IMG/VR virus record: IMGVR_UViG_3300017989_005240 | Coordinates: 1 to 28,075 of that record | DNA length: 28,075 nucleotides | DNA from: a virus | Reading direction: 5' to 3' (one strand) | Shown: one piece after another, positions 10,811 to 28,075 of the stretch | How positions within the stretch are numbered: the stretch's first letter is position 1 | Layout of the letters: each line of letters begins with the position of its first letter | Translations under genes and position numbers: made by a program | The notes under the pieces: model-generated | Told to the model about the DNA's origin: nothing | Database searches by the model: none | The model's input: only the letters and a program-made list of their open reading frames with translations

Positions 10811-10825
10811 GCAAGGAGAACCGCC

Positions 10826-11806: not shown

Positions 11807-11832
11807 CGTAGAGTTCACGCCTCCACCTCCTC

Positions 11833-11857: not shown

Positions 11858-11871
11858 CTCTTCGGCCAAGC

Positions 11872-11902
11872 TTGTTCCATCCCCCGTTTCTGATAGAATC
11901 AG
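11872..11902 (+). promoter_or_regulatory. Promoter with overlapping dyad for the 11906 gene
   Basis: TTGTTC (11872-11877), 16 bases, then TAGAAT (11894-11899) resembles a sigma-70 promoter. The predicted transcription start falls at about the A of the ATG at 11906, so the mRNA would be leaderless; no ribosome site is present. The -10 lies inside a dyad, CTGAT-AGA-ATCAG (11890-11902), which could be an operator. Confidence 0.5.
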
Positions 11903-11905
11903 CCT

Positions 11906-12361
11906 ATGGCTACTGAAGCACTCGAGATTCCGGAGAGATGCTGCCTGAACTGTGTGTTTCTGTACGATCCGAGTCAGGATGGAAAGCCCAAGCCCTCCTT
12001 GGACCGACAAACCAGAGATCGGCTTCGGGTAAGCGATCCCATTGGCAACAGAACGTTGCAGTGCTATCAGGAAGTCTGGGATGCCAAGGCGGTCAAGGAC
12101 GAGCCCGAAAGCAAACTCGACCGATTGCTCAGAGAAGACCGGGGAGAATTCTGTCTCTTCTACCCCTACAAGCCCAATGTATTTCCTGCTGCCGCGAAGC
12201 ACCTTGAACGACGAGCCGCCGACCGCCAGGAGGCGGAAAGGGACCGTGCTCTGACTAGGAGAGCCTTCTGGGTCGCTTTTGCAGCCCTTATGGTCTCGAT
12301 CTTCGCGATTCTGGCACAGCTCACGTGGGACATCTGTAAGCATATTCATTCCTGTCCGTAG
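11906..12361 (+). CDS. Cysteine-containing protein with C-terminal membrane anchor
   Basis: A 151-residue protein with its own promoter, separated from the island by a terminator. The N-terminus has clustered cysteines (RCCLNCVFLYDP, later LQCYQEVW and EFCLFYPYKP), which could bind metal or form disulfides. A charged helix (ERRAADRQEAERDR) precedes one transmembrane segment near the C-terminus (AFWVAFAALMVSIFAILA), giving a tail-anchored topology with the bulk in the cytoplasm. Its codon use is visibly less GC-rich than the phage core, which suggests an added accessory gene. The last 16 bases overlap the end of the convergent methyltransferase gene. Function unknown; membrane-level phage exclusion is one speculative option. 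Confidence 0.6.
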   Translation: MATEALEIPERCCLNCVFLYDPSQDGKPKPSLDRQTRDRLRVSDPIGNRTLQCYQEVWDAKAVKDEPESKLDRLLREDRGEFCLFYPYKPNVFPAAAKHLERRAADRQEAERDRALTRRAFWVAFAALMVSIFAILAQLTWDICKHIHSCP

Positions 12362-13665: not shown

Positions 13666-13776
13666 GTGCGATCTCCTTCGCGAAAAAACCGGCGGCGCAA
13701 AACAAACTCTGCCCATGGGTGCGACTGTTCCCGCGGCCATTTTCTCGATTCGATGCCGCGGAAGTACCTATACGTT

Positions 13777-14136
13777 TTATTTCTTCTCGACATTGGCTTT
13801 GCGACTGGCGCCTGTCTGGCCTGCTCCCGACGGCTGCGATGCTCGGGCGTCCACGTTGCCCGCCTCGCAGTCCCCGGGCTTCGTCTGCGCTATCCTGGCG
13901 ACGATGGTGTGGATCGCCTCGGCGTGCCGAGGGTATTCCTGGGCCAGCCATGAGGCCGGTGCATAGATATGCCCATCGTGTTGGATCACCGGCGCGACGT
14001 CATACCCGAGGCACAGCATCGCCTTGAGTTCGTTGTCGAACGCTCCGCAGGGCAGGAAGACCACGCCACAGTCATCCTCGAATGCGGTCCGCAGCCACTT
14101 GGCCAGTCGCTTGCCTTCGATCACGATCTGTCTCAT
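13777..14136 (-). CDS. Uncharacterised 119-residue protein
   Basis: A small protein starting at the ATG at 14136 with AGGAG six bases upstream. It opens MRQIVIEGKRLAKWLRTAF, then DDCGVVFLPCGAF and YPRHAEAIHTIVARIAQ, an alpha-beta half followed by a polar, glycine- and serine-rich tail likely to be disordered. No known motif is recognised. It lies between the replication gene's 3' repeat region and the methyltransferase, so it is probably transcribed with the replication genes. Real coding is likely from the ribosome site and the lack of any better frame; function unknown. Confidence 0.6.
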   Translation of the reverse strand: MRQIVIEGKRLAKWLRTAFEDDCGVVFLPCGAFDNELKAMLCLGYDVAPVIQHDGHIYAPASWLAQEYPRHAEAIHTIVARIAQTKPGDCEAGNVDARASQPSGAGQTGASRKANVEKK

Positions 14137-14401
14137 TTCGTTCTCCTGTCCTTGACGCCATGTCGTCGCGATAGCCCTACGTCCCGGGGAGTATCGCGGG
14201 GCGTTTGGGACGCCCGCGTACTCCCCCGTAGGGGGAGGGTGTGCTGAGTTCCGCCCTCAGTTCCGCGACCAATCGTTGTAAGTTGCTCATTTGAATCATC
14301 TTGAATCAGCAAGTGTCGCGGAACTGGGACGCCAACTGAGACGCGTCCCAGTTCCTGTCCAGTTCCGCCGCAGTTCCGGTCTGTAAATGGATCGTATTCC
14401 A
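14137..14401. other. Non-coding gap behind the primase gene: repeats and hairpins
   Basis: A 265-base gap with no convincing gene. Two short minus-strand frames (14133-14480 and 14296-14634) cross it without ribosome sites or protein-like residues. It holds most of the CAGTTCCG repeat cluster and a strong pair of competing hairpins, described separately. Together these make it a plausible replication origin or control region. Confidence 0.5.
14186..14237. repeat. Two mutually exclusive hairpins
   Basis: A 17-base-pair stem with two one-base bulges joins 14186-14204 to 14210-14226: GGGGAGTA, CGC and GGGCGT on the left arm, a 5-base loop, and their complements on the right. Its right end (14221-14227, CTCCCCC) can instead pair with GGGGGAG at 14231-14237 around a 3-base loop. 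The two folds cannot coexist. In transcription order on the minus strand the small hairpin is made first. Confidence 0.65.
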
Positions 14402-14514
14402 TTAGTTGTAGCTCTCGCGTCCGGAACTGGCTCCGGAACTCGGTTTTGCCAGTTCCGCGTCCAGTTCCGCAGTAACACATTTATTTGTGTTGACGAATTC
14501 CGTGTCAGTTCCGG
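14247..14514. repeat. Iteron-like cluster of CAGTTCCG boxes
   Basis: Eleven copies of AGTTCC(G), mostly CAGTTCCG, in 268 bases. Direct copies begin at about 14247, 14258, 14348, 14360, 14371, 14450, 14462 and 14506; inverted copies (CGGAACTG-type) lie at about 14317, 14421 and 14433. Several neighbours are 11-12 bases apart, about one helical turn. The cluster spans the last codons of the primase gene and the gap behind it. Iterons beside a replication initiator are typical of theta-type origins; binding is inferred. Confidence 0.6.
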
Positions 14515-16531
14515 CCATCGCGTTGCGAATCTGGCGAACGTATCGCTCTGAGATTCCCACCTGCTGGGCGACCTCCTGAACGCTGACCTCGGGGTCGTGG
14601 TCCAGCAGCGCCGCGGTCCACAGCGCCTTGTCACCGTTCATGCCGGGACGGTTCTTGACGTATCGCATGTACGCGCCGACGCGAATCTTGGCGACCAGGC
14701 CGCGCTCGATGGCCAGTTCCAGCATCTCGTCGGCCTTGCGTTCGGACAGGCCGAACCGCTGGCCGGCCTCGTACCGCACTGAGTTCTTGGAGCTCGGGTC
14801 ATTGACGGCGACGGATTGGGCGACGAAGTCTTCCAGTGCGACGTCCCTACGCCTGGCCTTCGGCTTGGCTGCGCCCAGCAGGGCCGAGGTATCCACCTCG
14901 TCGACGGGCGTGAACAGCGGCCAGTTCCAGACCAGGGCCTGCGGGCCCATGGGCGGCCAGCTCCGGACGGCGGATTCCAGCACGACGATGCCCTCGGCCT
15001 GGTGCGGACGGAGGATCAGGTGGGTATCGGCCGCGCGGGACTGGCTGCCGGCGCCCGCCCCGACGTCGGTGACGGCTTTACTGGCCTGGTTGCCCTTGCT
15101 GGCGTGGTGGATCAGGACGAAGGCGCACTGCATCTGCGCGGCGTAGTGATCGATCTGGTTGTACAGATTGGCCATCGCCCCGTTGTCGTTCTCGTCGGTG
15201 CCCAGAGGCAACGTGCGGTAGAAGGCGTCGACGATGACGATCTTGTACTGGCCGGCATCGACACGACGGAACATGCTGCCCATCGAGTACAGGTCGCGGA
15301 GCTTCCCGCGAAGGCTGATCAGGTCGATGTTCCTGCTGTACAGATGGTGCGGCATGCCCATGGCCTTGCTGACCACCCCGTAGCGATAGGTGATGTTGCA
15401 TGCGTGCAGTTCGTTGTCGATGTGGAGCACCCGGCCCTGTTCGACGGCCAGGCCCAGCCAGTCGAGGCCCGATGCCACGGAGATCCCCAGCGAGGAGGCC
15501 AGCCATGACTTGCCCATCTTCGGGCTGGCGATGATGTTCATCGTCTCGCCTTCGCGAAGCAGGCCATGGACCACCGGCCGGTTCAGGCCGGTGAAGCTGT
15601 CCATGAGCTCGTGGAGCCGCTGGATCGGAGGGCCGTCGTCCGGGTCCTCCGGCGGCTCCGTGCCACAGGCCTGCACAATGGCCGAGATGTCGACGTCCGT
15701 ACCACCGTCGGGGCCGAACATCTGGTCGTAGTGGTTCTCGACAAGCGCGACGGAGACCGAATCGGGCTCGTACCTCGCCACGCTGGCGGCGATGGCCTCG
15801 ACTTCGCGATCGGCCAGGGGCGGGTTGCACCGGGCGAGGTTGGTGGCCTGCAGCGCCGCGTGGATTTCGTCCTGGGACATGCCCATTCGGCGCATCCCGC
15901 CGGCCAGGGAGGCCAGAGTGCTATTGCGCTGGCCCGAGGGGATCAGGTTGGCGTCCGTGGGCCGCGACGTTCGCCCGTGTGGCGTTTTCTCGCCGGGGGC
16001 GCGTATCAGGGCCAGTAGCCACTCGGGGCACGCAGCGGGGCGAACGTCGGCGATATCGCTGGATATCTCCCAGGTGTAGGCCTTGCCGTTGGGATGGATG
16101 CTGGGCGGCAGGACGACATATCCACCGTCGCCCTTGATGTCGATGCCCGGGGCGACCTCGCCCTGGCTGCACGGAACATGTCCGCCGGGGTGGGCGATGA
16201 AGATGTGCCGCCCGCCACCGCCAGTCAGGACCTCGGCCGTCTCGGGCAGCGGTCCGTGTTTGGCCTCGAGGTCGGTCAGGCTCTCGTCCCCGCCGTGGCA
16301 GGGATCAACGTCGACGACGAACAACCCGCTGGCCTTGCCCGTGGCCATGGCGACGTTCGCCCGCGGGTTCTGGGTCCACCAGGCGCGAATAGTGGCCTTG
16401 TCGGTGGTCGCATCATGGAAACCGTTGGCGCACGCAGGCTTCTTGCGCCCTGGCTCGCATGGAAAGACGGCGATGTCCATGCCCGCGTAGCCGAGGGCGG
16501 CATCAAGGAATATGTTGACGGTGTCAGACAT
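14402..16531 (-). CDS. Bifunctional prim-pol / RepA-like helicase replication protein
   Basis: A 709-residue replication protein. Residues about 5-175 are an archaeo-eukaryotic primase/polymerase domain with VVDVDP (Asp74, Asp76), GGGGRHIFI (Arg-His at 108-109) and GIDIKGDGGYVVLPPS. Residues about 198-255 look like the helical primase C-terminal domain. Residues about 315-540 are a RecA-fold ATPase of the RepA/AAA_25 type with Walker A SPKMGKS (336-342), Walker B IVIVDAF (431-437) and LIHHASKG. The last 150 residues carry helix-turn-helix segments (VQEVAQQVGISERYVRQI) that could bind the adjacent repeats. It probably primes and unwinds phage DNA. The start ATG at 16531 has a weak ribosome site. 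Confidence 0.88.
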   Translation of the reverse strand: MSDTVNIFLDAALGYAGMDIAVFPCEPGRKKPACANGFHDATTDKATIRAWWTQNPRANVAMATGKASGLFVVDVDPCHGGDESLTDLEAKHGPLPETAEVLTGGGGRHIFIAHPGGHVPCSQGEVAPGIDIKGDGGYVVLPPSIHPNGKAYTWEISSDIADVRPAACPEWLLALIRAPGEKTPHGRTSRPTDANLIPSGQRNSTLASLAGGMRRMGMSQDEIHAALQATNLARCNPPLADREVEAIAASVARYEPDSVSVALVENHYDQMFGPDGGTDVDISAIVQACGTEPPEDPDDGPPIQRLHELMDSFTGLNRPVVHGLLREGETMNIIASPKMGKSWLASSLGISVASGLDWLGLAVEQGRVLHIDNELHACNITYRYGVVSKAMGMPHHLYSRNIDLISLRGKLRDLYSMGSMFRRVDAGQYKIVIVDAFYRTLPLGTDENDNGAMANLYNQIDHYAAQMQCAFVLIHHASKGNQASKAVTDVGAGAGSQSRAADTHLILRPHQAEGIVVLESAVRSWPPMGPQALVWNWPLFTPVDEVDTSALLGAAKPKARRRDVALEDFVAQSVAVNDPSSKNSVRYEAGQRFGLSERKADEMLELAIERGLVAKIRVGAYMRYVKNRPGMNGDKALWTAALLDHDPEVSVQEVAQQVGISERYVRQIRNAMAGTDTEFVNTNKCVTAELDAELAKPSSGASSGRESYN

Positions 16532-16546
16532 TGCTGGCCCTGTACG

Positions 16547-18262
16547 TCAAAACGGAATGTTGTCACCGGCCCACGTGTAGTCGCCGGGGCCCGGGTCGTG
16601 TTCGTCCCCACCGTCCAGCAACGGAGCGATCGGACCGATCTGGTAATCGATGATGCGGTCATACTTCTCGCCGGCGATGCTGCGAACGGTGATGGCTCTG
16701 GTTTCGGCCAGGGCGCCGGCCTCGGCGAGGTCCACGGCCTGCTCGGCCGTCTCGGGCAACGCCTCATTCGACCGGGCGCGCCACCAGGCCTCGAACTTCG
16801 CCCGGGCATAGCCGGTGTGCTCAGGGCAGACCCATTCGGAGTGGTACTCGTCAAAGCCGACGCGATACTCGACGCGCATGGTCCGGGGATGATCCTCCGG
16901 TGCGCCCCGCTTATGGTGGACGGAGTAGTAGACGTCGCTTACGTCATGCTCGGTGTCCGTGACCTGGCCGCTGAGGATGCCGGCGCTACTGGCCCGGGCG
17001 TCGTGGGTTTCCTTCTCCGGCGGCGGGAACTCGTATCCACACTCCGGGCACGTGGCATAGGCCGCGTGGATTAGTGCCTGGCACTCGGGGCATTCCTTGG
17101 CCGGGGCCTCGCCGCCGGACGCACCCGGCGTCTTGATTTGCAGATCGTCGACGGGCCCGTGACGGAGGATGTTCCCGCCGTAGTCCAGGACGAGGCAGTC
17201 GGCCTTGCCTGGATGCAGCCGGAAGCCCCGACCGACCATCTGGTAGAAGAGCCCCGGGGAGTTGGTCGGCCGAAGCAGGACCACGCAGTCGATGTTGGGC
17301 GCGTCGAAGCCGGTGGTCAGGACGTTGACGTTGGCCAGGTACTTCAGGTCGCCCGACTTGAAGCGGTGCAGCGTGCCCTCGCGCTCGAGGCCGGGCGTCT
17401 CGCCGCAGACAAAGCCGCACTCCTGGCCTGAGATCCGCCTCATGTTGCCAGCGACGTGTTTGCCGTGCTGGACGCCGCTGGTGAAGACCAGCACACTGCC
17501 GCGGTCCCGTGTCAGCTCGATGATCTCTTCACAAGCCGACTGGACGAGCGTGTACTGGTCCATGGCCGCCTCCACCTCCGACGCGATGAACTCCCCGCCG
17601 CGAACATGCAGGCCGTTCAGATTGGCCTTGCTCTTACCGGCACGGCTCTTGAGCGGGCAGAGGTAGCCCTGGGTGATCAGCTCCTTGACGCCGATCTCGT
17701 AGCAGACGTGGTTGAGCAAGTTCTCGGGTCCGCAGATCATGCCTGTCGCCATGCGGTACGGTGTGGCGGTCAGGCCGATCAGGCGGACGTTCGGATTGAC
17801 AACCTTCGCGTCGGCCAGGAACGTGCGGTACATGCCCTCCCCATCGGGAGGGAGCATATGCGATTCGTCCAGAAGGATCAGGTCGAACGCGTCCAGCTCG
17901 GCGGCTCGCTTGTAGACACTCTGTATCCCAGCCACGGTGATCGGCTTGTTCGTGTCCCGGGTCTTCAGACCTGCCGAGTAGACCCCGATCTGCATCCAGA
18001 GGTCCGGGGCCATGACGTGCAGCTTCTCGACGGCCTGCTCGAGCAGTTCCTTGACGTGGGCCAGGATCAGCACTCGCCCGTCCCACTTGGCCACGGCGTC
18101 GCGACAGATCGTGGCCATCACGGGGGTCTTGCCCCCGGCCGTGGGGATCACCACGCACGGGTTGTCGTCCCGACAGCGCAAGTGGTCGTAGACGGCGTTG
18201 ACCGCCTCGACCTGGTACGGCCGCAGTACGATCGGCTGGGACTCTGCCGTGGCCGTCGTCAC
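16547..18262 (-). CDS. SF2 DEAD/DEAH-type helicase with zinc ribbon
   Basis: A 571-residue superfamily 2 helicase. I start at the GTG at 18262 (GGAGG seven bases upstream, GTGA overlap with the previous stop); the longer frame to 18649 is the phosphoesterase gene read out of frame. Motif I is PTAGGKT (40-46), II is DESH (132-135), III is TAT (165-167) and VI is QMVGRGFR (341-348). A zinc ribbon follows (CPEC at 391-394, CPEC at 405-408). The last 150 residues hold WCPEHTGY-like and acidic segments of unknown fold. Phage helicases of this kind help remodel forks or recombination intermediates. The family call is firm; its exact partner is not visible. Confidence 0.9.
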   Translation of the reverse strand: MTTATAESQPIVLRPYQVEAVNAVYDHLRCRDDNPCVVIPTAGGKTPVMATICRDAVAKWDGRVLILAHVKELLEQAVEKLHVMAPDLWMQIGVYSAGLKTRDTNKPITVAGIQSVYKRAAELDAFDLILLDESHMLPPDGEGMYRTFLADAKVVNPNVRLIGLTATPYRMATGMICGPENLLNHVCYEIGVKELITQGYLCPLKSRAGKSKANLNGLHVRGGEFIASEVEAAMDQYTLVQSACEEIIELTRDRGSVLVFTSGVQHGKHVAGNMRRISGQECGFVCGETPGLEREGTLHRFKSGDLKYLANVNVLTTGFDAPNIDCVVLLRPTNSPGLFYQMVGRGFRLHPGKADCLVLDYGGNILRHGPVDDLQIKTPGASGGEAPAKECPECQALIHAAYATCPECGYEFPPPEKETHDARASSAGILSGQVTDTEHDVSDVYYSVHHKRGAPEDHPRTMRVEYRVGFDEYHSEWVCPEHTGYARAKFEAWWRARSNEALPETAEQAVDLAEAGALAETRAITVRSIAGEKYDRIIDYQIGPIAPLLDGGDEHDPGPGDYTWAGDNIPF

Positions 18263-19032
18263 GCAACCACCTCCGTTCCGTCGGGGAGGATGCAGCGGCC
18301 GTCCATGATCGGGATCGTGTACAAGGTGTCGCTGCGCCGACCGAGGTAGCCCAGGATGAAGGCGTTGACCCACTCGACGGGCCTGCCGGTGCCGTACAGC
18401 GGGATCGGCTTGCACAGACACCCGGCGCTTCGGGCCTGGATGATCCTCGCCGGCGACCAGATGTTCTGGATGATGCTCGTGTCGGCCCTGTGCGTGTGCC
18501 CGTGGATGACGCTCTTGCCCTGGCTGATCTGGAGGTGGTTCTTCGTCGCGTGCTTCGCGTAGGACCAGCCGTGCACGGCGATGATGCGCGAATTGACGGC
18601 GTAATGCGGGTACTTGCCCGACGTCGTGCCGTAGCGGACGTAGGTGCATCGCTTGCGGCCCCGCATCAGTTGAATGCGCGGTGCCAGCATCGAATACGCG
18701 CCCCTGCCCTCAGCCGTCGCCGCTGCCCAGCGGTCCAGCCGGTACTCATGGTTGCCTTCCACCATCACCAGCCGGTCACACGCCTTCTGAAGGCGATCCA
18801 GCAGCGCACCGGCAGTATCCAGATCGGCCTCGTAGTCCGTTTCCGGCATGCCATAGGTCGGCGGGTGCGTCGAGAACTGTCCGCAATCGAGCAGATCACC
18901 CAGGCAGACGATGAGGTCAGGCCGAAGGCGCTCTGCGGCGAGGCAGAACACCTCCAGCGCCGCGACGTTCTGATGGGGCGCGTGCACGTCGCCGAAGGCG
19001 AGCATCGTTTTGCTGCCGGTCCTGGCCATCAT
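18259..19032 (-). CDS. Metallophosphoesterase
   Basis: A 257-residue calcineurin-like phosphoesterase. Metal ligands are seen in order: FGDVHAPH (Asp15, His17), CLGDLLDCG (Asp46), VEGNHEYRLD (Asn94, His95), AVHGW and the final IHGHTHRAD. I start at 19032, whose ATG overlaps the preceding stop (ATGA); a second ATG at 19029 is possible. The open frame upstream to 19206 is the neighbouring gene out of frame. Such enzymes in phages may act on nucleotides or on DNA ends, in the manner of Mre11. With helicase and nuclease neighbours a DNA repair role is plausible, but the substrate is not shown. Confidence 0.88.
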   Translation of the reverse strand: MMARTGSKTMLAFGDVHAPHQNVAALEVFCLAAERLRPDLIVCLGDLLDCGQFSTHPPTYGMPETDYEADLDTAGALLDRLQKACDRLVMVEGNHEYRLDRWAAATAEGRGAYSMLAPRIQLMRGRKRCTYVRYGTTSGKYPHYAVNSRIIAVHGWSYAKHATKNHLQISQGKSVIHGHTHRADTSIIQNIWSPARIIQARSAGCLCKPIPLYGTGRPVEWVNAFILGYLGRRSDTLYTIPIMDGRCILPDGTEVVA

Positions 19033-19679
19033 TCGTCCCCCGCGACCATTCCGGCCGTTCGCGCGTAGCCCGCGATGTCTACCAGGTTGTCCCTCTTGTG
19101 ATGATGCGATTGACGGGCCAATTTGACTGCGATTACGCATAGGGGCACGTCCATCGCCGTGACCACAGCACCATCGCGCAGTTTGCCGGCCAGGATGCCC
19201 GTCCACATCAGTGCCGTTCGGGCGAAGTCATCGGCCGGATGGCCATAGTCCTTCTGCCGGTCCGTGCTGGTAATGCGCTGAGCCTCGGCCAGGATCGATT
19301 CGCTCGGGTCGGCGGTCACCAGCCGCAATCGGTGGAGACCGACTGTCGGTACCGGCGCTTCGGTCACCGGCCCAAGCGTCTCGGCGTCGAGGATCTCCAT
19401 CCCGAACTCACGAGCCAGCAGGTACTCCAGCTTGGCCCCGCACGATTCCTCCCACCCGGGCAGCAGGGCGATGGCGTCGCAGTCGACCAGCAGGGCAACG
19501 TCGGCGCGCAGGTACATTTCGCGGGGCAGGTCTGTGCGTCCGTCAAAGTTCTCGGCCGGATTGGCTACCACCCAACCGGCCGCCCTGAATCGCTCGGCCG
19601 CTGCGTGGAAAGCCGGATAGTTGTGATCGGCGTGGCCGGTCATCGGGCCGGCAATGTAGACTCGTCTAAGTTTGTCCAT
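19029..19679 (-). CDS. DUF4406 (deoxyribosyltransferase-like) fused to DUF6378
   Basis: A 216-residue two-domain protein. Residues 1-100 are DUF4406: VYIAGPMTGHADHNYPAF, then AENFDGRTDLPREMYLRAD and a second segment LLPGWEESCGAKLEYLLA. The domain is related to nucleoside 2-deoxyribosyltransferases. Residues about 128-210 are DUF6378, recognised by ILAEAQRITSTDRQKDYGHP and CVIAVKLARQSHHHKRDNLV. Phages often carry these two domains as separate genes; here they are one polypeptide. A role in nucleotide metabolism is inferred. The start lies three bases after the RusA stop, with CGGAGG upstream. Confidence 0.82.
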   Translation of the reverse strand: MDKLRRVYIAGPMTGHADHNYPAFHAAAERFRAAGWVVANPAENFDGRTDLPREMYLRADVALLVDCDAIALLPGWEESCGAKLEYLLAREFGMEILDAETLGPVTEAPVPTVGLHRLRLVTADPSESILAEAQRITSTDRQKDYGHPADDFARTALMWTGILAGKLRDGAVVTAMDVPLCVIAVKLARQSHHHKRDNLVDIAGYARTAGMVAGDE

Positions 19680-19682
19680 TGG

Positions 19683-20078
19683 TCAGTTGTCCTCCGGGAA
19701 CGGGCCTCCACACAGCGGGCAGCGCCGCAGGGGCAGCTCGTCCACATGGACATCGAGCCTGCCGCCCCGAACGCGCGGGCGCCGCCGCGTGAAGAGGAGA
19801 TCGATCTGGCTGTCGTCGAGATACACGCCGGCGTGCTCGAGCGCATCGAGCACCGGCTTGGCGATGTTGTCCAGGTCGCGCCGGCGCCGGTCCGGCGGGA
19901 AGGCGTCCATGCACAGGGCGATCCTCCCGCCGGCCGGCGGTTTGCGAGCCCCGCTGCCGCCCAGGAGGGCGCAGACGTTCCTGCGAAACGTCCGGCCCTC
20001 CCGGCTGATCAGCGTGCGCGGCCCGACGCGCCGCCAGTAGTGGTTGATGCTCGGAGGCCAGGGCAAGGTGAGGATCAT
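19683..20078 (-). CDS. RusA-like Holliday junction resolvase
   Basis: A 131-residue enzyme, close to the 120-residue RusA norm. It has the family opening LPWPPSINHYWRR and the catalytic segment RRDLDNIAKPVLDAL (acidic residues at about 68 and 70), followed by GVYLDDSQID with further Asp residues. RusA dimers cut four-way DNA junctions, here presumably from phage recombination and before packaging. The C-terminus carries one extra CPLC pair that E. coli RusA lacks. The ATG at 20078 overlaps the previous stop (ATGA) with GGAGG just upstream. Confidence 0.9.
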   Translation of the reverse strand: MILTLPWPPSINHYWRRVGPRTLISREGRTFRRNVCALLGGSGARKPPAGGRIALCMDAFPPDRRRRDLDNIAKPVLDALEHAGVYLDDSQIDLLFTRRRPRVRGGRLDVHVDELPLRRCPLCGGPFPEDN

Positions 20079-20347
20079 GCTGCCTCCGAGAGCGATTCGC
20101 TGCGGGACTGCTTGCGCCAGGCCAAGATGCGCGACATCTCGACCTCGGCATCGTCGCGGATGGCGAACTCAGCCCGCTCGCGACGGTCACGCGTCCAAGC
20201 GTCGTGGTCGTCGAGCGGTTGAGTGCTGCGCCAGTAGTCCAGGTACGCATCGCGGATGGCGTAGAAGACCGTCTCCTTGCCTTCCACGATCTCACTCACC
20301 TTCACGATCCGCTCGTCGTGATTGACGACAGTGGTGTCTGTAGTCAT
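20075..20347 (-). CDS. Uncharacterised acidic 90-residue protein
   Basis: A small protein with AAGGAGG eight bases before its ATG. It begins MTTDTTVVNHDERIVKVSEI, then FYAIRDAYLDYWRSTQPLDD and a charged helical end with WTRDRRERAEFAIRDDAEVE. It is largely helical; no catalytic or metal-binding motif is visible. It overlaps the RusA start by four bases and follows the DUF669 gene by 13, so it is part of the recombination operon and may be a partner of one of those proteins. Function unknown. Confidence 0.65.
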   Translation of the reverse strand: MTTDTTVVNHDERIVKVSEIVEGKETVFYAIRDAYLDYWRSTQPLDDHDAWTRDRRERAEFAIRDDAEVEMSRILAWRKQSRSESLSEAA

Positions 20348-20360
20348 CTCAGCACCTCCT

Positions 20361-20819
20361 TCATCGCTTCCACGGCGGGGTGCTGTCGGCGACGGGGGCT
20401 TGCTGCGGCTGGCCAGCGGCCGTTTCCTTCTTGGCGTACCCCTTGATCTCGTTGGTCAGCTCCCCGGTGTCCTCGCGCTTCTTGAGCTTGACGGTGATCA
20501 CCAGCGGCAGGTTGTGCAGCTCCACGCTGTCCTTGGGCTGCATGACGCCGACCGCGTGGCAGATGGCCGAAAGCTCCGACCGGGCGATCTTGACCGCCGT
20601 GGCGTTGGGGTTGTTGAGGTTCAGGCGCGCCCACAGGATGCGGTTTTTGTACTCGCCCTCCAGGAGCGTGAAGGTCAACTGGAGGTAGCTGCCGTTGCCG
20701 GTCTTGGTCGCCTTCATCTCCGACTCGGTGATGGCCGCGACGTACTTGCCGGCCGGGATCGGGTCGAAGCTGGTGGTGGGTTCGACTTCGTTCGCGTTGA
20801 AGTTTCCGAGGTTAGCCAT
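20361..20819 (-). CDS. DUF669 family protein (ssDNA-binding-like)
   Basis: A 152-residue protein with the DUF669 hallmarks: an N-terminal FDPIPAGKYVAAITESEMK, then NGSYLQLTFTLLEGEYKNR and LWARLNLNNPNATAVKIA, and a late ITVKLKKRED. The C-terminus is a disordered Q- and P-rich stretch ending TPPWKR, a tail reminiscent of single-stranded DNA-binding proteins. DUF669 genes travel with Sak-type ATPases and RecE-like nucleases, as here, and probably supply the ssDNA-coating part of that recombination set. Start ATG has AAGGA nine bases upstream and overlaps the ATPase stop by eight bases. Confidence 0.88.
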   Translation of the reverse strand: MANLGNFNANEVEPTTSFDPIPAGKYVAAITESEMKATKTGNGSYLQLTFTLLEGEYKNRILWARLNLNNPNATAVKIARSELSAICHAVGVMQPKDSVELHNLPLVITVKLKKREDTGELTNEIKGYAKKETAAGQPQQAPVADSTPPWKR

Positions 20820-21555
20820 TGGTGATGTCCTTTCCGTCGTTGGGGGTTTGACTCAATGCGGTCATGAGGGCCGACCAGCTCAGAGGCAGCTCGGCCGGAA
20901 GGCTGTAGCGGTTCTTCGCCAGGATCACGTTCGTGCCCTCGGTTCGGAGCACGCGCCGGTCGCCGTCGCGGGCCGCATACAGCACGGCGTCGGCCCACTC
21001 GATGAACGCCGGGGCGACCCAGTGGGGAAGGTCCGGTGCGGCCAGGCGGAGGTCGAAGCCTTCCGGCGTGGTCATCTTCGTGTTGGCCGCGTGGGCCAGG
21101 AGGATGATGGCCATCCCTTCGCCGGCGACGGCGTTGAGCATCGGCAGCAGGTCGCGGTAGACGATGTTCTGCACGATCTCCCTCGCCTTGAAGTAGCCGC
21201 CATGGGCCGTGCCGAGCGTGTTGGTGATGTCGTTGGGTGACTTGTCGTCCAGGTCCAGGACCACGTGCTCGATGATGCGCTGGACCATCCAGTCGACGGT
21301 ATCGACGGCCACGGCGGGCACACCGTTCGGCGGACTGGAGGCCAGTTCGGCCAGCCACTGTCGCATCTGAGGCCACGTCTGGAGGTAGGGCGTGCGCGTC
21401 AGCCCCGATACCGCCCCGGCCCCGTTCTCGCAATCGATCAGGACCGCGCCGGCCGAGGCGGCGAACGTCGTTTTGCCGACGCCGGGTTGGCCGTAGACGA
21501 TCATCTTGGGAGGTGACGGCGTGGTCGTGGTGATGAGTGTGTCCATGAGTGTCAT
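20812..21555 (-). CDS. Sak4-like RecA-fold ATPase
   Basis: A 247-residue RecA-fold ATPase. Walker A is GQPGVGKTT (22-30) and the Walker B Asp is in AVAVDTVDW (Asp85); AIILLAHAANTKM supplies the following sensor strand. The pattern is that of AAA_24/Sak4 single-strand annealing or recombinase proteins found in phages, usually with DUF669 and an exonuclease. I start at the ATG at 21555 because AAGGA lies seven bases upstream. The longer frame to 21822 runs through the tRNA-like element and gives non-protein-like residues. It probably promotes strand annealing in phage recombination. Confidence 0.85.
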   Translation of the reverse strand: MTLMDTLITTTTPSPPKMIVYGQPGVGKTTFAASAGAVLIDCENGAGAVSGLTRTPYLQTWPQMRQWLAELASSPPNGVPAVAVDTVDWMVQRIIEHVVLDLDDKSPNDITNTLGTAHGGYFKAREIVQNIVYRDLLPMLNAVAGEGMAIILLAHAANTKMTTPEGFDLRLAAPDLPHWVAPAFIEWADAVLYAARDGDRRVLRTEGTNVILAKNRYSLPAELPLSWSALMTALSQTPNDGKDITNG

Positions 21556-21609
21556 GTGCTGTTCCTTGTCGTTAGAGGTTGTTGCTTTCACATCGTGCGG
21601 CCGGCCGAA

Positions 21610-21673
21610 TGGCGGGTGTGGGAGTCGAACCCACGTCCCGAGGCGTATGAGGCCCCGGTAGCCCGGCCCCGCC
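21610..21673 (-). tRNA. tRNA-Met-like element lacking a normal D arm (candidate)
   Basis: On the minus strand a T arm (GTGGG-TTCGACT-CCCAC) is followed by ACCCGCC, which pairs with GGCGGGG at 21667-21673 except for the last base pair. Between them a GGGGC/GCCTC stem with one G-T pair encloses CTCATAC, giving anticodon CAT with T33 in place. Only ten bases separate the acceptor and anticodon stems, so there is no room for a standard D arm. No CCA is encoded. It may be a decayed tRNA, a tRNA mimic or a processing signal; a working tRNA is doubtful. Confidence 0.4.
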
Positions 21674-21678
21674 CAGAA

Positions 21679-21756
21679 GCGCCCGGGCGGCGGCAGGGAG
21701 TCGGGCTTCTCTGTCAGGGGTTGAGTCCACTCCGGCCACATGGCCCGCCCGGGCGC
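21679..21756. repeat. 12-base inverted repeat beside the tRNA-like element
   Basis: GCGCCCGGGCGG at 21679-21690 recurs as its complement CCGCCCGGGCGC at 21745-21756. Each arm contains the self-complementary core CGCCCGGGCG. The repeat encloses the 5' leader of the tRNA-like element, in the gap between the nuclease and Sak4 genes. It may form a long hairpin in the RNA or be a paired protein site. Confidence 0.5.
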
Positions 21757-21763
21757 TGGATGG

Positions 21764-23284
21764 TCACGCCACGTTGAGCATGCGGATCTCCTCGTAGCCG
21801 GTGGGCCAGTCGCCCAGGTCACGGCAGCGGAGCAGCCTGCGGATCGCCGCCTCGTTCTCCTGTTGGGCGATGGCGAGGGTGTCGTCGCCGAGGCGCCACA
21901 CGCCGCAGCGGAACGGCTCTTTCTTCTCGACGCCGATCAGGTGGACGGGCATCAGTGCGCCGATGACCACCGCGAGCACGGCACGATAGAAGGCCATCTG
22001 CCGGTGGTAGCCGAAACGTCGGGCGTCGGACTCGAACCACGTCAAGTCGTCGCAGGTCTTGAGGTCCACGATGCCGCGGTGTGGATGAGCCCAGTCCAGG
22101 CGGATCTGGCACGGCACGCCGCAGTACTCGGCCCGCACGACGCCCTCGGACCGGCCGTACAGCAGCAGGTCGACGGCCTCGGCGTTCATGGACACGCCGG
22201 TGGCCATGTTCTGGACCAGGGCGGCCTGTTCGTGCGTCAGCACCGCCTTGCCCTGCGCGTCGGCCCATTCGCGATAGGCCTTGGTGTTCGGTCCGAAGGG
22301 GCGATTGGTCTTGGGGTTGACCGGGCCGCCGATCGCGTAGGCGGCCTCGTAGGCGTCGTGGCCCTGGAGGATCTTCACGTGGGCTGCGCGCCCGATGGCG
22401 TAGGCGGGCGAGTCCTTGTCCTCAATCAGGCCCAGGGCCTTCTTGCGGTGAAGCCACGGGCACCGCATGAAGTCCAGCAACTGGTGGCTGGAGAGGTACT
22501 GCTTGGCTTTGCCGTGGTACTCGTCCTCGGCCTCGCACGTCAGGACGCTCACGTCGATGAACTGTTCAGTCACGGTCTCGTCTCCCAATTCGCTGCGGTG
22601 GTCCAGTTCTCTACATTTGCGTGAGGGGCGAATCCTTTTCGGCCTATTTTGAAAAATCTCCAAACCGGCCCTCTTGAAGTAGGGGCGAATCCGATGGATC
22701 GCCCGGGTGATCGTTGCCGGAGAGACGCCCATCAGCCGGGCCGCCCCCGACGGCGAGTGGACCGTCAGCAAGCGGCAGACGACCTGAAGCCGTTCGGGCA
22801 TGGCACAGATCACGGCCTCCACGTCCATCCGGAGATCTTCGGCTGCGAACGGTTCGCCGGTCGTCGCCGGGTCGATGATCGTCTCGTCGAAGCCCTCGGC
22901 GATGTCATCGAAGCCGACCGGGCGTGTGGCCGGGTCATTCCCGGGGCGTAGCAGTCTGCGGAGGATATGCCTGTATCGCCGGTCCAAGATGCGGCTGAGG
23001 AAGGTCTTCCACCGGGTACGCTTCTTGTCGTAGCGGGGTACGCCCTGAACGAGGGCCATCAGCAAGTCTTGGGTGAGGTCATCTCGCTCCGACTCGTCGA
23101 GACCGAACTTCTGCAAGATCCGGTCGACCTTGAAGGCAATCCGTTTCTGGACGTACGCCTCGGCCTTGTCCCGATCGAGGCCCGGTACGAACCGAGCCAG
23201 GAGATCGGCAAACCGCTGCGGCGTTTCGCCGGCGTGTTGCTCGGTGCCGGCCGGGGCGGCTGGTTGTGTCGTTCCGGTAATCAT
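21764..23284 (-). CDS. ECF-like sigma factor fused to RecE-like (DUF3799) nuclease
   Basis: One 506-residue open frame with two unrelated halves. I start at the ATG at 23284 (AAAGGA seven bases upstream), not 23329. Residues about 60-112 are sigma-70 region 2 (DDLTQDLLMALVQ, TRWKTFLSRILDRRYRHIL). Residues about 160-208 are region 4 with a helix-turn-helix (SGAARLMGVSPATITRAIHR). Residues about 255-506 are a PD-(D/E)XK nuclease of the RecE/DUF3799 type: YLSSHQLLDFMRCPWL, Asp397 in RLDWAHP, Asp407 and Lys409 in IVDLKT, then a YHRQMAFYRA motif. A second start for the nuclease alone is the GTG at 22573 (codon 238) with GGGAG upstream. The nuclease would prepare DNA ends for recombination; the sigma half would direct phage transcription. 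Whether both stay joined is open. Confidence 0.75.
   Translation of the reverse strand: MITGTTQPAAPAGTEQHAGETPQRFADLLARFVPGLDRDKAEAYVQKRIAFKVDRILQKFGLDESERDDLTQDLLMALVQGVPRYDKKRTRWKTFLSRILDRRYRHILRRLLRPGNDPATRPVGFDDIAEGFDETIIDPATTGEPFAAEDLRMDVEAVICAMPERLQVVCRLLTVHSPSGAARLMGVSPATITRAIHRIRPYFKRAGLEIFQNRPKRIRPSRKCRELDHRSELGDETVTEQFIDVSVLTCEAEDEYHGKAKQYLSSHQLLDFMRCPWLHRKKALGLIEDKDSPAYAIGRAAHVKILQGHDAYEAAYAIGGPVNPKTNRPFGPNTKAYREWADAQGKAVLTHEQAALVQNMATGVSMNAEAVDLLLYGRSEGVVRAEYCGVPCQIRLDWAHPHRGIVDLKTCDDLTWFESDARRFGYHRQMAFYRAVLAVVIGALMPVHLIGVEKKEPFRCGVWRLGDDTLAIAQQENEAAIRRLLRCRDLGDWPTGYEEIRMLNVA
22624..22692. repeat. 12-base direct repeat in the sigma-nuclease linker
   Basis: AGGGGCGAATCC occurs at 22624-22635 and again at 22681-22692, 57 bases apart (19 codons, in frame). 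It encodes the repeated RIRP seen at the end of sigma region 4 and in the linker. The copy in the linker may mark a small duplication or rearrangement that joined the two genes. Confidence 0.55.
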
Positions 23285-23332
23285 CAGTGTTTCCTTTCGG
23301 AGCCGGTCTGGTTCGTCGGTCTCCCCCATTAC

Positions 23333-23983
23333 CTACCGGCGGGTGGTCGAATCTGTCGGGTTGGGCGCAGGCTCGGGCAGGTAGCTTTCCAGGCCGGCTT
23401 CCTCAAAGTGCTTCCTGATCTCTTTGATGGCGTCGTAGATGCTGGAGCGGTGGCGCCCCATGGCCTTAGCCACCTCCCGCGCCGAGCCCAGCTCCTTCAG
23501 TTGCTCGTAGACGTTGCGAAGACGGTTGGGCAGGGCCGCGGCAGCGGCGGTTATGTCGATAATCAGGTCGCCGAGTTCCTGTGGATCGCTGGACGGCGTG
23601 CCACGATGGCGGCGCGCATTCTGCTCGGTAACCAGGTCAGCCCCCGTCACCCACCCGTTATAGAAGGGGTGCGTATCAGCTTCGACGAGCACCCACTGAC
23701 TGAGGCTGGCTTCCTCGCGGCGGTAGTCCCGGCAGTCGGCCTTTCGAGCGGCGATGATGTCTGCGATGGCGTTCCTGACCACCCGGGCGAGGAATGTGTT
23801 CTCTTGGGCCTTCGCCGGATCGAACCTCGGCCGGCGGCGTATGACCTCCAACGCGATCTGCTGCTCCAGGTCTTCCCGATCGAACTCGGTGAAACGATAC
23901 CTGCCTATCGTCCTGTGGACCGTGATCCCGATGAGGGTGGTGACATACTGCGGGAGGGGACTGCGGTTGTTGATGGTACCCAC
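23333..23983 (-). CDS. ECF-like sigma factor (first gene of the phage early operon)
   Basis: A 216-residue sigma-70 family protein with region 2 at about 34-80 (REDLEQQIALEVIRRRPRFD, then NTFLARVVRNAIADIIAAR) and region 4 at about 150-195 (LPNRLRNVYEQLKELGSARE, VAKAMGRHRSSIYDAIKEI). A 70-residue insert lies between. It resembles the sigma half of the next gene (both end '...F..AGLE'), so the phage has two sigma paralogs in tandem. It probably switches RNA polymerase to phage promoters. The start is the GTG at 23983, with AAGGAG eight bases upstream that can be buried in RNA structure (separate entry). Confidence 0.8.
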   Translation of the reverse strand: MGTINNRSPLPQYVTTLIGITVHRTIGRYRFTEFDREDLEQQIALEVIRRRPRFDPAKAQENTFLARVVRNAIADIIAARKADCRDYRREEASLSQWVLVEADTHPFYNGWVTGADLVTEQNARRHRGTPSSDPQELGDLIIDITAAAAALPNRLRNVYEQLKELGSAREVAKAMGRHRSSIYDAIKEIRKHFEEAGLESYLPEPAPNPTDSTTRR

Positions 23984-24342: not shown

Positions 24343-25266
24343 TCACAGTTTGCCGGATGTTTGCAGGTGGAAGAGGACGGTCGAGCTCCAGATGCCAGTA
24401 TCGCCGTCCTGATTTGAGACAAGGCCGACGCCGTCCTGGAACTGTACCACGTGTCGCAGCCGGTTCATCGCCTTTCGTCTCGCCCCTGCCTTTCCCTTCA
24501 CATGCTCGGCGAGAGAATCACTCGACCACTCGAGCGTGATCTTGCACTCCTCTGGTAACCTGCTGCCGGGCAGATCCTCTGCTCCCTGCCGCATCTTGTT
24601 CATGGCCGTTGCGATCCCGGCCATCACAATCGTCAGCGGTTGGTCCCGCAGCGGCACCGAGACGAGTTGGGCGGGTCGCCCAGCCCCTGGTTTCTTGAGC
24701 AATATCCGAAGTAGGCCCTCACTGTCCCCCGTCGCAGCCAACTCCGCATAGCACTCTGCAGACGGGGCCGCTATGTCGAACTTCTGCGGTTCCTTGCGGA
24801 GCCGTCGTCGGGGCGCAGGCTGACCGGTCTTGCCGTCCGCCTGAAGATTTCGACTGTGCTCAGCCAGGGCCTGCCGGATGACCTGTGATAGCGACTTGTC
24901 CTCCAGAGGCTTCGGGATGCAACGGGTTGCCCCCATCTGTGTCAGTTTGGTGGCCATCGCGAAGCCCTGGTCCGTGTAGCTGGTCATCATGAAGACCGGC
25001 ATGCGGCCGATGCCGTGTTTACTGCCAATCTCGGCCAGAAACGTCATCCCGGAATCAGCGTCGGGGAACATCCCATCCGGCATCGCCGGTATTCTCAGGT
25101 CGAGCAGAACATAGTCGAATTCCGCGTTGTGCAGCGCTTCGCGGGCATCGTGCAGATTGGTCGCACAAACGCAGTCGTGCCCCAGCACCACCATGGTGTG
25201 GCGGATAAAGTCGACGACGTTGGCGTCGTCCTCGACAACGAGTGCCCTGAGCGATGTCTTGGTCAT
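24343..25266 (-). CDS. Response regulator with unrecognised output domain
   Basis: A 307-residue protein. Residues 1-135 are a complete receiver domain: acidic VEDD (12-14), phosphoacceptor Asp56 (VLLDLRIP), Thr95 (MMTSY) and Lys119 (IPKP), all key residues present. A basic linker (PAPRRRLRKEP) leads to about 150 residues with segments YAELAATGDSEGLLRILLKK, LTIVMAGIATAMNKMRQGAE and GIWSSTVLFHLQ. These are not an HTH, GGDEF, PNP or other output domain I recognise. Its ATG overlaps the kinase stop (ATGA), so kinase and regulator are a pair. The output may bind a protein or act as an enzyme; DNA binding is not indicated. Confidence 0.85.
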   Translation of the reverse strand: MTKTSLRALVVEDDANVVDFIRHTMVVLGHDCVCATNLHDAREALHNAEFDYVLLDLRIPAMPDGMFPDADSGMTFLAEIGSKHGIGRMPVFMMTSYTDQGFAMATKLTQMGATRCIPKPLEDKSLSQVIRQALAEHSRNLQADGKTGQPAPRRRLRKEPQKFDIAAPSAECYAELAATGDSEGLLRILLKKPGAGRPAQLVSVPLRDQPLTIVMAGIATAMNKMRQGAEDLPGSRLPEECKITLEWSSDSLAEHVKGKAGARRKAMNRLRHVVQFQDGVGLVSNQDGDTGIWSSTVLFHLQTSGKL

Positions 25267-26405
25267 TCCTCAACTACTTCGGCTGCCAACGGAAGGGTCA
25301 CGATGACGGTGGTTCCGTGGTTCAGACGGCTGTGAATATCCAGACTGCCCTCATGGGCCTCGATGCCTCGCTTGGCTTTTAGGAGCCCGTAGCCGGTGCT
25401 TCTCTTCTTCGTCATGTTCTTGCGGCCCGGCAGGAAGGTCTTCACTTTTCGCAGGTGTTCATCCGACAACCCAACGCCCGTGTCCTCAATCGAAACACGG
25501 ATGGCGTCAGCGGCATACTCGGCGCGAACGTTGATCTCCCGTCCGCCGGTCTTGGCCTCGCATGCCTCGTAGGCGTTTTTCAGGATGTTCATGAACGCGT
25601 TGATGATCGCATGGCGGCAGGCCGGCAAACGGATGTCCACCGGCACGTCCATCGTCACGGCGACAACGTCCGGGTTTCCCCCGTCTTGTCTCACGTTCTC
25701 CCGGGCCAGCCCGTCAGCCGTGCGGATGAGGTCGTCGAGCCGCTCCATGTGGCGAACGATCGGCACGGGCTCACAGTATGCCTGGATGTCGCGCACGGAA
25801 CGGTGGAGCAGTTCCAGACCTTCGGTGATCCGGGCGGCGAGATCTGCCGCTGCCGGATTCTCGGCCACCTCGGACTGAAGCGACTTGGCATATTCCTTCA
25901 AGGGGGCCAGGAGGTTCAGCAGATCGTGGGCGATCTCCTTGCCGACCATCCCCAGGTGTTCATCGCTCAACTCCATGGCGTCGACCGCCGCGACTTCCCC
26001 GTGGCGCTTAGCGAATGATTCGAAGCGGGACGTGACCAGCGACATGCCGCGGCTGGCTCGTTCGGCCTCCAGTTCCGTCCTCCGCCGGCGTTCCATACTC
26101 CTTTCGGCGGCCGTTCTCACGTAACGGTTATCGTCTAGTGTCAATCTCGCTGCCAGATCAACGAAATGCTCATCGGGCACGAACGGCAGAATGTCCGCCA
26201 GGTCCTGCCTGACCTCCCACTTGGGGTCCTCGGCCAACTGGTAGAGCAACGGCACCAAGGCCTTGTCCTGGTCCCCGCCGTCTCGGAAGGCGTCGGCCAT
26301 CGCCTTCACAAGGCCGCGCCGTTCGGCGACCGGCAACGCATCCGGATTGGCCTGAATGCGGGTCAGCGCGTCTGCGAAACGGGATGTCTCGGTGGGCGAT
26401 GGCAT
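25263..26405 (-). CDS. HEAT-repeat soluble sensor histidine kinase
   Basis: A 380-residue histidine kinase with no membrane segment. Residues about 45-105 are HEAT-like helical repeats (LVPLLYQLAEDPKWEVRQDL, VDLAARLTLDDNRYVRTAAE), likely the protein-sensing part. A coiled helix follows, then the phosphoacceptor His160 in GKEIAHDLLNLLAPLK. The ATPase has the N box FMNILKNAYEA (271-281), G1 EDTGVGL (307-313) and G2 STGYGL (336-341). The start ATG at 26405 shares one base with the ATPase stop (TGATG), so it is translated after it. It signals to the regulator downstream. A cytoplasmic kinase with a protein-binding sensor suits detection of an intracellular event. Confidence 0.87.
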   Translation of the reverse strand: MPSPTETSRFADALTRIQANPDALPVAERRGLVKAMADAFRDGGDQDKALVPLLYQLAEDPKWEVRQDLADILPFVPDEHFVDLAARLTLDDNRYVRTAAERSMERRRRTELEAERASRGMSLVTSRFESFAKRHGEVAAVDAMELSDEHLGMVGKEIAHDLLNLLAPLKEYAKSLQSEVAENPAAADLAARITEGLELLHRSVRDIQAYCEPVPIVRHMERLDDLIRTADGLARENVRQDGGNPDVVAVTMDVPVDIRLPACRHAIINAFMNILKNAYEACEAKTGGREINVRAEYAADAIRVSIEDTGVGLSDEHLRKVKTFLPGRKNMTKKRSTGYGLLKAKRGIEAHEGSLDIHSRLNHGTTVIVTLPLAAEVVEE

Positions 26406-27976
26406 CAGTAGTTGTATCTCCTCTTCCGCTGTAGGAAGGCGTCCTCCCCGCCTTCCAGCAACCTCACAATCTGATGCTTGCACTCGTCTACGGTACCTTC
26501 CTTCTCCGTTGCGGCGCTTGTCCCGGTCGACTTCAGGACAAAGACTTTCTCGGCGTCGCCCAGGACGGGGATGTTCGGGTTGTGCGTCACGAAGATTAGT
26601 TGCCGCCGGTGCTTCATCTCCCGGATGCGTGTCACGACGGTCTCGTAAATGAAGCTATTGTCCAGATTGTCTTCCGGTTGGTCCACGAGCAGCGGGTTCT
26701 CGCTGTCCATCAAGAGGATGGGCAGGATCGTCGTGCATTTCTGGCCGGTCGATAGTGTCAGGGAGTCTTTGTACTCTGTGCCGTCCTGGAGTTCGATGCA
26801 CGGCAGGTCGATCATCTCGACGGTGTCAAGCTCATACATCAACCGCGAACTGCCCAATGTGCCGATGACCTTACTCGCCTGGTCAAGGTTGATTCCGGCT
26901 CGGGTTGCGAGCGCGTCGGCGTCGGTTGCAGCAACGGCGCTGGCCAGATCTCCGGGGGGGACGTTGTTGGCGATCTTCTCAGCGACCTTCAAGTGGCGAA
27001 TGCTGGCGCCCCTGAGAGCGTCCTCCAGAAGCGCCCGGTATGGCGCGGGATTGCCGTACTGCTCGACCCGGACGCGGACCTGTGGTGAGACATCGGCGTT
27101 GATCTTGTTCGCGACGGCCTTGCGGATGGCGAACCGCCTGTCGCGGAGTTCGTTGAGTTGCTGGAGAAGTTCGACGCGCTGGGCTCGGGATCCGGCCAAG
27201 TCGTCTGATCGCTGTTTGTGCTGCTTCTCCTTGAGTAAGAGCTCGTTGTGTTTCCTCTCTAATGCGGCTCTCTCGGCGGACTGGCCCTGGAGTTCCTTGT
27301 GCTTCTCGATCAGCGACTGGAATGCGGCTTCCTGGACGGCGTGGGCCTCCGACAACTGCCGCACGGCAGCAGCGTGGCGGTCGATCTGCTCTCCAACCTT
27401 CCGCGCCGCCGCCTGAAACAGCTCGTCCAGATCGCTGCCCAAGGCCAAGAGACCGTCGAGAGACTGTTGGAGGATAGCCGCGTTGGGGCCCTCAAGCGAA
27501 TCCCGCTCAAACATTGCCTGGGTTCGCTGGTTGAATTGCCCAAGGGCCTCCTGAAAATAATCGGCATGCCGCTGGAGCAGATCATTGGCCCCCTGCATGG
27601 CCTGCTGTTCGCGCTCCCGAAGGGCCTTGCTGTTGTGGGCCTGGTTGATCGCGTCCGAGTCTTCCCCCTTGACCGCAGCCAGGGCCTTCAGCCTGTCACG
27701 GACTTCGGGGAACGTGGCGATTTCATCATCCAGGACCGCCAGGGCCTCCTGGGCCTCGGTGCACGCGTGGGCGTTGGCCCTCAGGGCGGATACGGTCCTG
27801 TAAATCTGTGTTTCGGTCTCACTGACGGCCGCCAGGTCGAAGCTGTCCAGTAGCGCGAGCTGTGACAAGGGGTCGTCGGCGATGCCCTCAATCTGGTTCT
27901 GGCTGTAAATGTCCACGCCGAACAGCTCGGCCGACCGCAGGGATACGTTGGTTGGCTGGCCATCGGGCGTAGACAA
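26405..27976 (-). CDS. SMC/TrlF-like ATPase, N-terminus missing
   Basis: A 523-residue protein that is mostly a long coiled coil (about 90-300) followed by the C-terminal half of an ABC/SMC-type ATPase. It has the signature LSTGQK (408-413), Walker B LLVDQPEDNLD (429-439) and a His switch at 465 (FVTHNPN). No Walker A is present. The first residues (ELFGVDIYSQNQIEGIADDP) look like the inside of such an ATPase domain, just before the coil. The only start is a TTG at 27976 without a ribosome site, and an in-frame stop (TAA) lies at about 28060-28062. The 5' part, which in TrlF-like proteins would also hold the nucleotide-binding P loop, has been lost or is encoded out of frame. It may be a decayed gene or the partner of another subunit. 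Confidence 0.65.
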   Translation of the reverse strand: MSTPDGQPTNVSLRSAELFGVDIYSQNQIEGIADDPLSQLALLDSFDLAAVSETETQIYRTVSALRANAHACTEAQEALAVLDDEIATFPEVRDRLKALAAVKGEDSDAINQAHNSKALREREQQAMQGANDLLQRHADYFQEALGQFNQRTQAMFERDSLEGPNAAILQQSLDGLLALGSDLDELFQAAARKVGEQIDRHAAAVRQLSEAHAVQEAAFQSLIEKHKELQGQSAERAALERKHNELLLKEKQHKQRSDDLAGSRAQRVELLQQLNELRDRRFAIRKAVANKINADVSPQVRVRVEQYGNPAPYRALLEDALRGASIRHLKVAEKIANNVPPGDLASAVAATDADALATRAGINLDQASKVIGTLGSSRLMYELDTVEMIDLPCIELQDGTEYKDSLTLSTGQKCTTILPILLMDSENPLLVDQPEDNLDNSFIYETVVTRIREMKHRRQLIFVTHNPNIPVLGDAEKVFVLKSTGTSAATEKEGTVDECKHQIVRLLEGGEDAFLQRKRRYNY

Positions 27977-28011
27977 TATGGAACGACCGGCCCCGTGGTC
28001 GTAAGTTATGC

Positions 28012-28029
28012 ATAGTAACGCGTAACTAT
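28012..28029. repeat. 18-base near-palindrome at the right end
   Basis: ATAGTAACGCGTAACTAT is self-complementary in eight of its nine base-pair positions. It lies between the truncated ATPase and a plus-strand terminator, in an AT-richer stretch. An operator or recombination site is possible; nothing more can be said. Confidence 0.45.
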
Positions 28030-28030
28030 C

Positions 28031-28053
28031 AGGCGAAACAGGTTCGCCTTTTT
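28031..28053 (+). terminator. Rho-independent terminator, plus strand
   Basis: AGGCGAA and TTCGCCT form a perfect 7-base stem around a 5-base loop, directly followed by four more T. It would stop transcription coming from the left on the plus strand, although no plus-strand gene ends near it in the window. It may be a leftover of an earlier gene arrangement. Confidence 0.55.
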
Positions 28054-28075
28054 CCGCGGGTTAAGGCATGTGGCC

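Follow-up and report, generated by a model that had tools for sequence, protein, structure and literature searches.

In the 28,075-nucleotide virus record IMGVR_UViG_3300017989_005240 of IMG/VR (the whole of this stretch is referred to here as the window), three genes on the minus strand at 24343-27976 encode an ATPase, a soluble histidine kinase with HEAT repeats and a response regulator. As judged by sequence comparison, this trio is a co-inherited, active-looking phosphorelay with a fixed gene order, conserved phosphorelay residues and an exchangeable output, and the window probably carries a 5'-truncated, phage-borne copy of what is a mobile three-gene sensing cassette. The explanation favored for the family, with a probability of roughly 0.55, is an infection-sensing defence relay in which a signal of invasion would pass from the ATPase through the HEAT kinase to the regulator, which acts on it. 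Gene order, residues and output types were read from the sequences themselves; the ligand, the direction of signalling and the role in defence are what we infer from them.

Recurrence and co-inheritance of the trio

A search with the kinase recovered four Planctomycetota contigs, each carrying ATPase, kinase and regulator genes. The closest relative, locus L002, is 73% identical to the window in all three proteins (in the regulator, over the receiver only), and the DNA is likewise 73% identical across 3.2 kb. A kinase-profile search was positive in 17 of 392 sampled Planctomycetota genomes, some of which hold two or three copies, and an ATPase-profile search identified close relatives on 33 IMG/VR contigs. 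Searches of viral contigs with the window kinase or regulator as single proteins returned nothing, whereas the ATPase alignment did find relatives, and phage GenBank records gave only generic kinase and receiver matches. An earlier note on this DNA had asked whether the three genes recur together, and they do: the order ATPase-kinase-regulator on one strand was found in 52/52 loci where all three genes were present, namely the window, 22 loci in Planctomycetota genomes, 27 IMG/VR contigs and 2 plasmids. Loci short of a complete trio lie mostly at contig or stretch ends, and a regulator was not seen in L101 and L037. The distance matrices of ATPase and kinase are strongly correlated (Mantel r = 0.93 over 45 loci), the kinase histidine is invariant in 58/58 aligned members, and the receiver aspartate is invariant in 52/52.

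When plasmids were searched with the L002 ATPase, trios annotated as an AAA ATPase, a kinase and a "response regulator" or "phosphotransferase" were found in Klebsiella, Rhodococcus, Phaeobacter, Vibrio, Leclercia, Shinella, Pantoea and Caballeronia. Besides the 2 plasmids counted above, six plasmids of Proteobacteria and Actinomycetota have the ATPase-kinase-regulator order by annotation, and a Piscirickettsia plasmid encodes the kinase and regulator, with no ATPase annotated within the stretch seen.

Components of the relay

The coupling of the three window genes through TGATG and ATGA junctions, as described in the earlier note, was confirmed, and so were the minus-strand open reading frames listed in Table 1. 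The kinase is indeed soluble and carries HEAT repeats (Pfam HEAT_2, 3.9e-6; HATPase_c, 7.6e-16); neither it (maximum 19-residue hydropathy 0.97) nor the regulator has a membrane segment, and its predicted phospho-accepting residue is His160 at ~25926-25928. A longer kinase reading frame starts at 26483 and overlaps the ATPase gene, with the ATG start at 26405. The regulator has an intact receiver (Pfam Response_reg, 1.3e-13) in which Asp56 (~25099-25101) and Lys119 are kept. Both frames are intact, with all catalytic residues retained.

The description of the first gene product as an SMC/TrlF-like ATPase held for its C-terminal half, where a coiled coil and the motifs LSTGQ, DQPED and THNPNIPV were found; the gene itself is incomplete. 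Relatives are 622-680 amino acids long with a Walker A motif (GxRGTGKTT) close to the N-terminus, but the window ATPase lacks ~105 N-terminal residues including this motif, its homology to relatives beginning near 27970, and the copy is therefore truncated or mis-assembled. Walker A is present in 60 of 68 family members and is missing in the window and in seven others, most of which end at a contig or fetched-stretch edge. The family also has an LSxGQ signature and Walker B, and ATP binding requires all three motifs. By its motifs the family fits an ABC/SMC-type ATPase, and the window copy does not. The terminal 105 bases of the window are 52% G+C and contain an in-frame stop, and the sole remaining ATPase start is a TTG; an exact match to these bases was found neither in viral contigs nor in phages, and only 26-38-base matches were detected, in three genomes. 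As assembled, the window ATPase would be unable to bind ATP, and this trio copy is therefore unlikely to function, barring an assembly error at the contig end. Separately, a divergent branch of the trio (L106-L108, L029 and L037) was observed in which Walker B of the ATPases departs from the DQPED form and the regulators have a different winged-helix-like tail.

The output end of the window regulator is, as the earlier note had stated, unrecognised: Pfam matched Response_reg only, leaving residues ~141-307 with no family. DNA homology to L002 stops at 24816, and the output seems to have been swapped right behind the receiver linker, where the sequence DGKxGQP is shared with L002 and the tail is not. 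Relatives of the tail were found neither in the 392 genomes nor, by hidden Markov model or hhalign comparison, among 50 regulators, and against L002 only a 23% stretch (E 0.012) was aligned; the same comparison led us to reject a frame-shifted version of the L002 tail. In a structure model of the regulator, of which the earlier note had proposed predicting residues 140-307, the C-terminal part has a low-confidence predicted local distance difference test score (pLDDT) of 25-64, and the predicted helix and strand order would suit a winged helix but does not single it out. The tail keeps a normal codon-position G+C and is therefore probably genuine coding sequence arising from an output swap.

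In the relatives, two kinds of output were found. The Planctomycetota regulators match DeoR and helix-turn-helix models weakly, and the L002 regulator is modelled (mean pLDDT 82.9) as a receiver followed by two winged helices, the first of them OmpR-like. Both VanR and RpaA, at full length, align to L002 residues 4-280, the receiver plus the first winged helix, with a high root-mean-square deviation that is due to domain orientation; the structure comparison list was filled by receiver domains, so that the absence of a family from it carries no meaning. Behind the receiver, the plasmid regulators instead have TCAD9 (Pfam PF19974), a kinase domain of APH-like type (44-61 bits, cut-off 40), and their translations contain HGDLHxxN and D(F/Y)xD motifs. 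For the plasmid regulator, PADLOC gave no family at E 1e-10 and a structure search no matching solved structure, and E. coli genomes searched with the Klebsiella regulator contained no relative. The earlier note had viewed the C-terminal domain as an effector as opposed to an ordinary transcription-factor domain. Winged helices of OmpR-like and DeoR-like type are what the nearest relatives possess; such outputs resemble transcription factors, an outcome that the note had listed as refuting its idea. The effector reading survives for the plasmid branch because the output there is an APH-like kinase domain.

Two breaks in homology bear on the nature of the window copy. It stands at even odds that the trio of the window is either a remnant in decay or a chimera of assembly, in which host or element DNA was joined to a phage, the ATPase was broken and the regulator tail was replaced. 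The ATPase homology ends at 27970 and is followed by 105 unrelated bases, the regulator homology to L002 ends at 24816, the tetranucleotide profile of the trio departs from the phage part (0.92 versus 0.97-0.98), and none of the related phage records searched carries the trio ATPase; however, the intact kinase and regulator frames with their catalytic residues, the DNA identity to L002 over 3.2 kb and the normal codon-position G+C through the orphan tail speak against it. Such an origin is compatible with the defence relay favored for the family as a whole.

Genomic context and layout of the window

Several copies of the trio lie in defence islands or operons. In L089, SspC-like, PglZ and BrxL genes of a bacteriophage exclusion (BREX) system accompany the trio, which starts within tens of bases after BrxL; in L102, type III restriction genes and an OLD/Gabija-like ATPase are directly upstream; type I restriction genes overlap the ATPase start in L005; and in L004 an HsdM-like fragment precedes the trio and a TIR protein follows it. 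In L092 the trio shares ~11 kb with a type II restriction endonuclease, a short Argonaute pair and a Pycsar TIR effector (PycTIR). On a Caballeronia plasmid (L137), a DUF1837 protein and a DEAD/DEAH helicase at 8793-12340, presumably a Hachiman-like pair, flank the trio on one side and an integrase on the other. PADLOC, applied to 114 neighbour proteins, reported 153 families at E 1e-10, with at least 10 distinct strong kinds (E under 1e-90), compared to 26 families (five of them from an ATPase added as the first row) and one strong match among 114 control proteins from the same genomes. At the protein level the comparison gives Fisher p 0.005 (10/114 versus 1/114), but it is only suggestive because the proteins cluster in few islands and the difference per locus is not significant; the recurrence in defence islands that the earlier note asked about is seen clearly at individual loci. 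Two further neighbours were observed: directly upstream of the L002 trio (244-3064) are a HATPase protein and then a 603-amino-acid protein that Pfam does not match, which together may form another kinase/partner pair, and a 2305-amino-acid RHS/HINT protein, polymorphic-toxin-like, is encoded at 2-6919 of L101, just upstream of its trio copy with no recognised regulator.

The neighbours on viral contigs include helicases, integrases or invertases, primases and portal proteins, and plasmid trios are found near replication, partition or transfer genes. A mobile-element decision regulator would account for this setting: the trio would sense DNA damage or host state, and a winged-helix regulator would control phage or plasmid genes. 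Its targets would be lysogeny, induction and copy control, as in an SOS-like switch lacking LexA. This reading is unlikely. The position of the trio in phage contigs beside integrase, primase and helicase genes, its plasmid neighbours and the DNA-binding outputs in Planctomycetota are consistent with such a regulator. The same cassette, however, is joined to BREX and restriction operons and occurs in a chromosomal defence island where no phage genes were recognised, the plasmid outputs are kinases and not DNA-binding domains, and the phage type of the window does not need the trio, given that 0/39 virus records with related terminases carry the ATPase.

The proximity to a phage claimed in the earlier note is supported by terminase, portal, head protease, primase and helicase genes in the window, in addition to its source as a virus record. 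Related records that reach past the sigma-like genes carry something else at the trio position, and for phages of the window's type the trio is at most an accessory. The T-run terminator said to close the operon is not convincing: the nine-T run at ~24270 lies ~28 bases past a strong hairpin, a terminator scan did not call it, and the folding z was only -1.5.

Table 1. Positions of the trio and of other features in the window
Feature	Position	Strand	Remarks
ATPase gene, 5'-truncated	26405..27976	-	523-amino-acid open frame from TTG; TrlF/Ppl-like ABC/SMC-type ATPase half
Soluble HEAT-repeat histidine kinase	25263..26405	-	380 amino acids from ATG at 26405; C-terminal HATPase_c
Response regulator	24343..25266	-	307 amino acids; receiver is residues 1-140
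Regulator C-terminal output domain, residues ~141-307	24343..24846	-	no sequence relatives found
Unrelated lower-G+C 105 bases in place of ATPase 5' end	27971..28075	.	possibly an element end, deletion or assembly chimera
Phage genes downstream of trio, same strand	2723..23983	-	head protease, portal, terminase, methyltransferase/ParB, primase, helicase, Sak4-like, DUF3799 and sigma-like genes

Positions 1-19622 of the window are 100% identical to a sister phage, IMGVR_UViG_3300029258_003713, and beyond a sharp mosaic boundary near 19.6 kb the two share patches of 80-92% identity. The phage early region contains two tandem sigma-70-region-2-like genes (21764-23983), the second of which is in one frame with a DUF3799 PD-(D/E)XK domain; in some relatives the sigma-like and DUF3799 halves match at adjacent positions. 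A tRNA-Met (CAT) is predicted at 21610-21683 in the same region, and a possibly spurious tRNA-Arg, predicted at 19851-19940, overlaps coding frames.

Comparison with known systems and interpretation

Detocs is described as a three-gene family with a PNP effector (PMC11249213). Like Detocs, the trio has three genes, a kinase-to-receiver relay proposed to trigger an anti-phage output and an exchangeable effector, and in the window a histidine kinase and a receiver are encoded together with the histidine and aspartate conserved. The three genes of Detocs encode a kinase, a separate receiver protein and an effector-receiver. The trio has neither a PNP domain or other Detocs effector fused to its receiver nor a stand-alone receiver gene (one receiver gene only), its first gene encodes an ABC-type ATPase, its kinase contains HEAT repeats, and its output is a winged helix or an APH-like kinase. 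The trio thus resembles Detocs in outline, yet it is not Detocs.

Against TrlF the ATPase aligns with the second two thirds, and against Ppl with the C-terminus, but it lacks the PHP half and is under both curated cut-offs: the L002 protein scored 305 bits against TrlF model NF045780 (cut-off 350; positions 291-944 only) and 127 bits against Ppl (cut-off 1000). Unlike these proteins, it apparently signals to a separate kinase. Profile-level likeness extends to Ppl, PARIS and other conflict systems, and a structure search found no solved structure matching the ATPase. An ABC-type ATPase attached to BREX and restriction loci, with weak similarity to AriA, is also reminiscent of PARIS and OLD/ABC-ATPase guard modules; however, TOPRIM (AriB) is absent in both partner genes, no other nuclease partner is present, and a phosphorelay stands in its place. 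Back-up modules have been described at BREX loci (PMC12839542), and the trio resembles them in its attachment to operons of BREX and restriction systems. The Planctomycetota regulators share the receiver and winged helix of OmpR/PhoB-type systems (VanR, RpaA), whereas the trio has a soluble HEAT kinase, an obligatory ATPase gene, often a second winged helix, and a mobile cassette form. TCAD9, an APH-like domain named for ternary conflict systems, is the output of the plasmid regulators, but in the trio it is fused to a receiver and put under a histidine kinase. Neither the literature searched nor PADLOC 2023 yielded a description of the trio, and a prior mention is possible in the Nucleic Acids Research 2020 ABC-ATPase survey and in the Detocs paper.

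An alternative is an ordinary cytosolic two-component system with a DNA-repair ATPase for general DNA stress, with no special link to defence and found in islands because islands collect everything. This is improbable. A TrlF/Rad50-like ATPase, OmpR-like outputs and the lack of significant defence enrichment per locus fit such a system, but a very patchy distribution (17/392 genomes) with up to three copies per genome, carriage by phages and plasmids, swapping of outputs and direct operon fusion to BrxL and HsdM/S genes do not.

In the infection-sensing defence relay, the ATPase would recognise an invasion event, such as foreign or damaged DNA ends, a competing element that replicates or an anti-restriction protein. 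It would then turn on the kinase via the HEAT part. The kinase would then phosphorylate its own histidine and pass the phosphate to the receiver aspartate. In Planctomycetota, the phosphorylated regulator may bind DNA via its winged helices and alter how its own operon, neighbouring defence genes or the host element are expressed; on plasmids, it would turn on the APH-like kinase (TCAD9), probably a growth-arresting effector. The trio may give restriction systems a back-up or trigger layer, and may protect phages and plasmids from competitors.

Several results weigh against this explanation. A DNA-binding output suits ordinary regulation as well as defence; in the window copy Walker A is missing and the output domain is an orphan with a low-pLDDT model; per-locus enrichment is ~5/24 versus 1/20, and a recognised defence neighbour is missing at most host loci. 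The ATPase was absent from all of the 39 sampled virus records mentioned above, many of which are fragments. Furthermore, the plasmid kinases match the Planctomycetota kinase profile weakly (1e-4 to 5e-12, with one not recovered), and most plasmid regulators fall short of the regulator profile.

It is tentatively proposed, at somewhat short of even odds, that the trio is an ATPase-gated two-component immune relay that bacteria, plasmids and phages all use, and thereby a new class of immune signalling; that its outputs are a transcription factor or an APH-like toxin kinase is a suggestion of the same tentative standing. If true, two-component signalling, the commonest bacterial sensing device, would be wired to an ATPase of the phage-sensing kind, and one unit with swappable outputs would be passed among phages, plasmids and chromosomes. 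The output swap, DNA-binding in one branch and a kinase effector in the other, would make trigger and effect separable in experiments, and phage-borne copies would be another instance in which viruses employ immune-type relays against their competitors.

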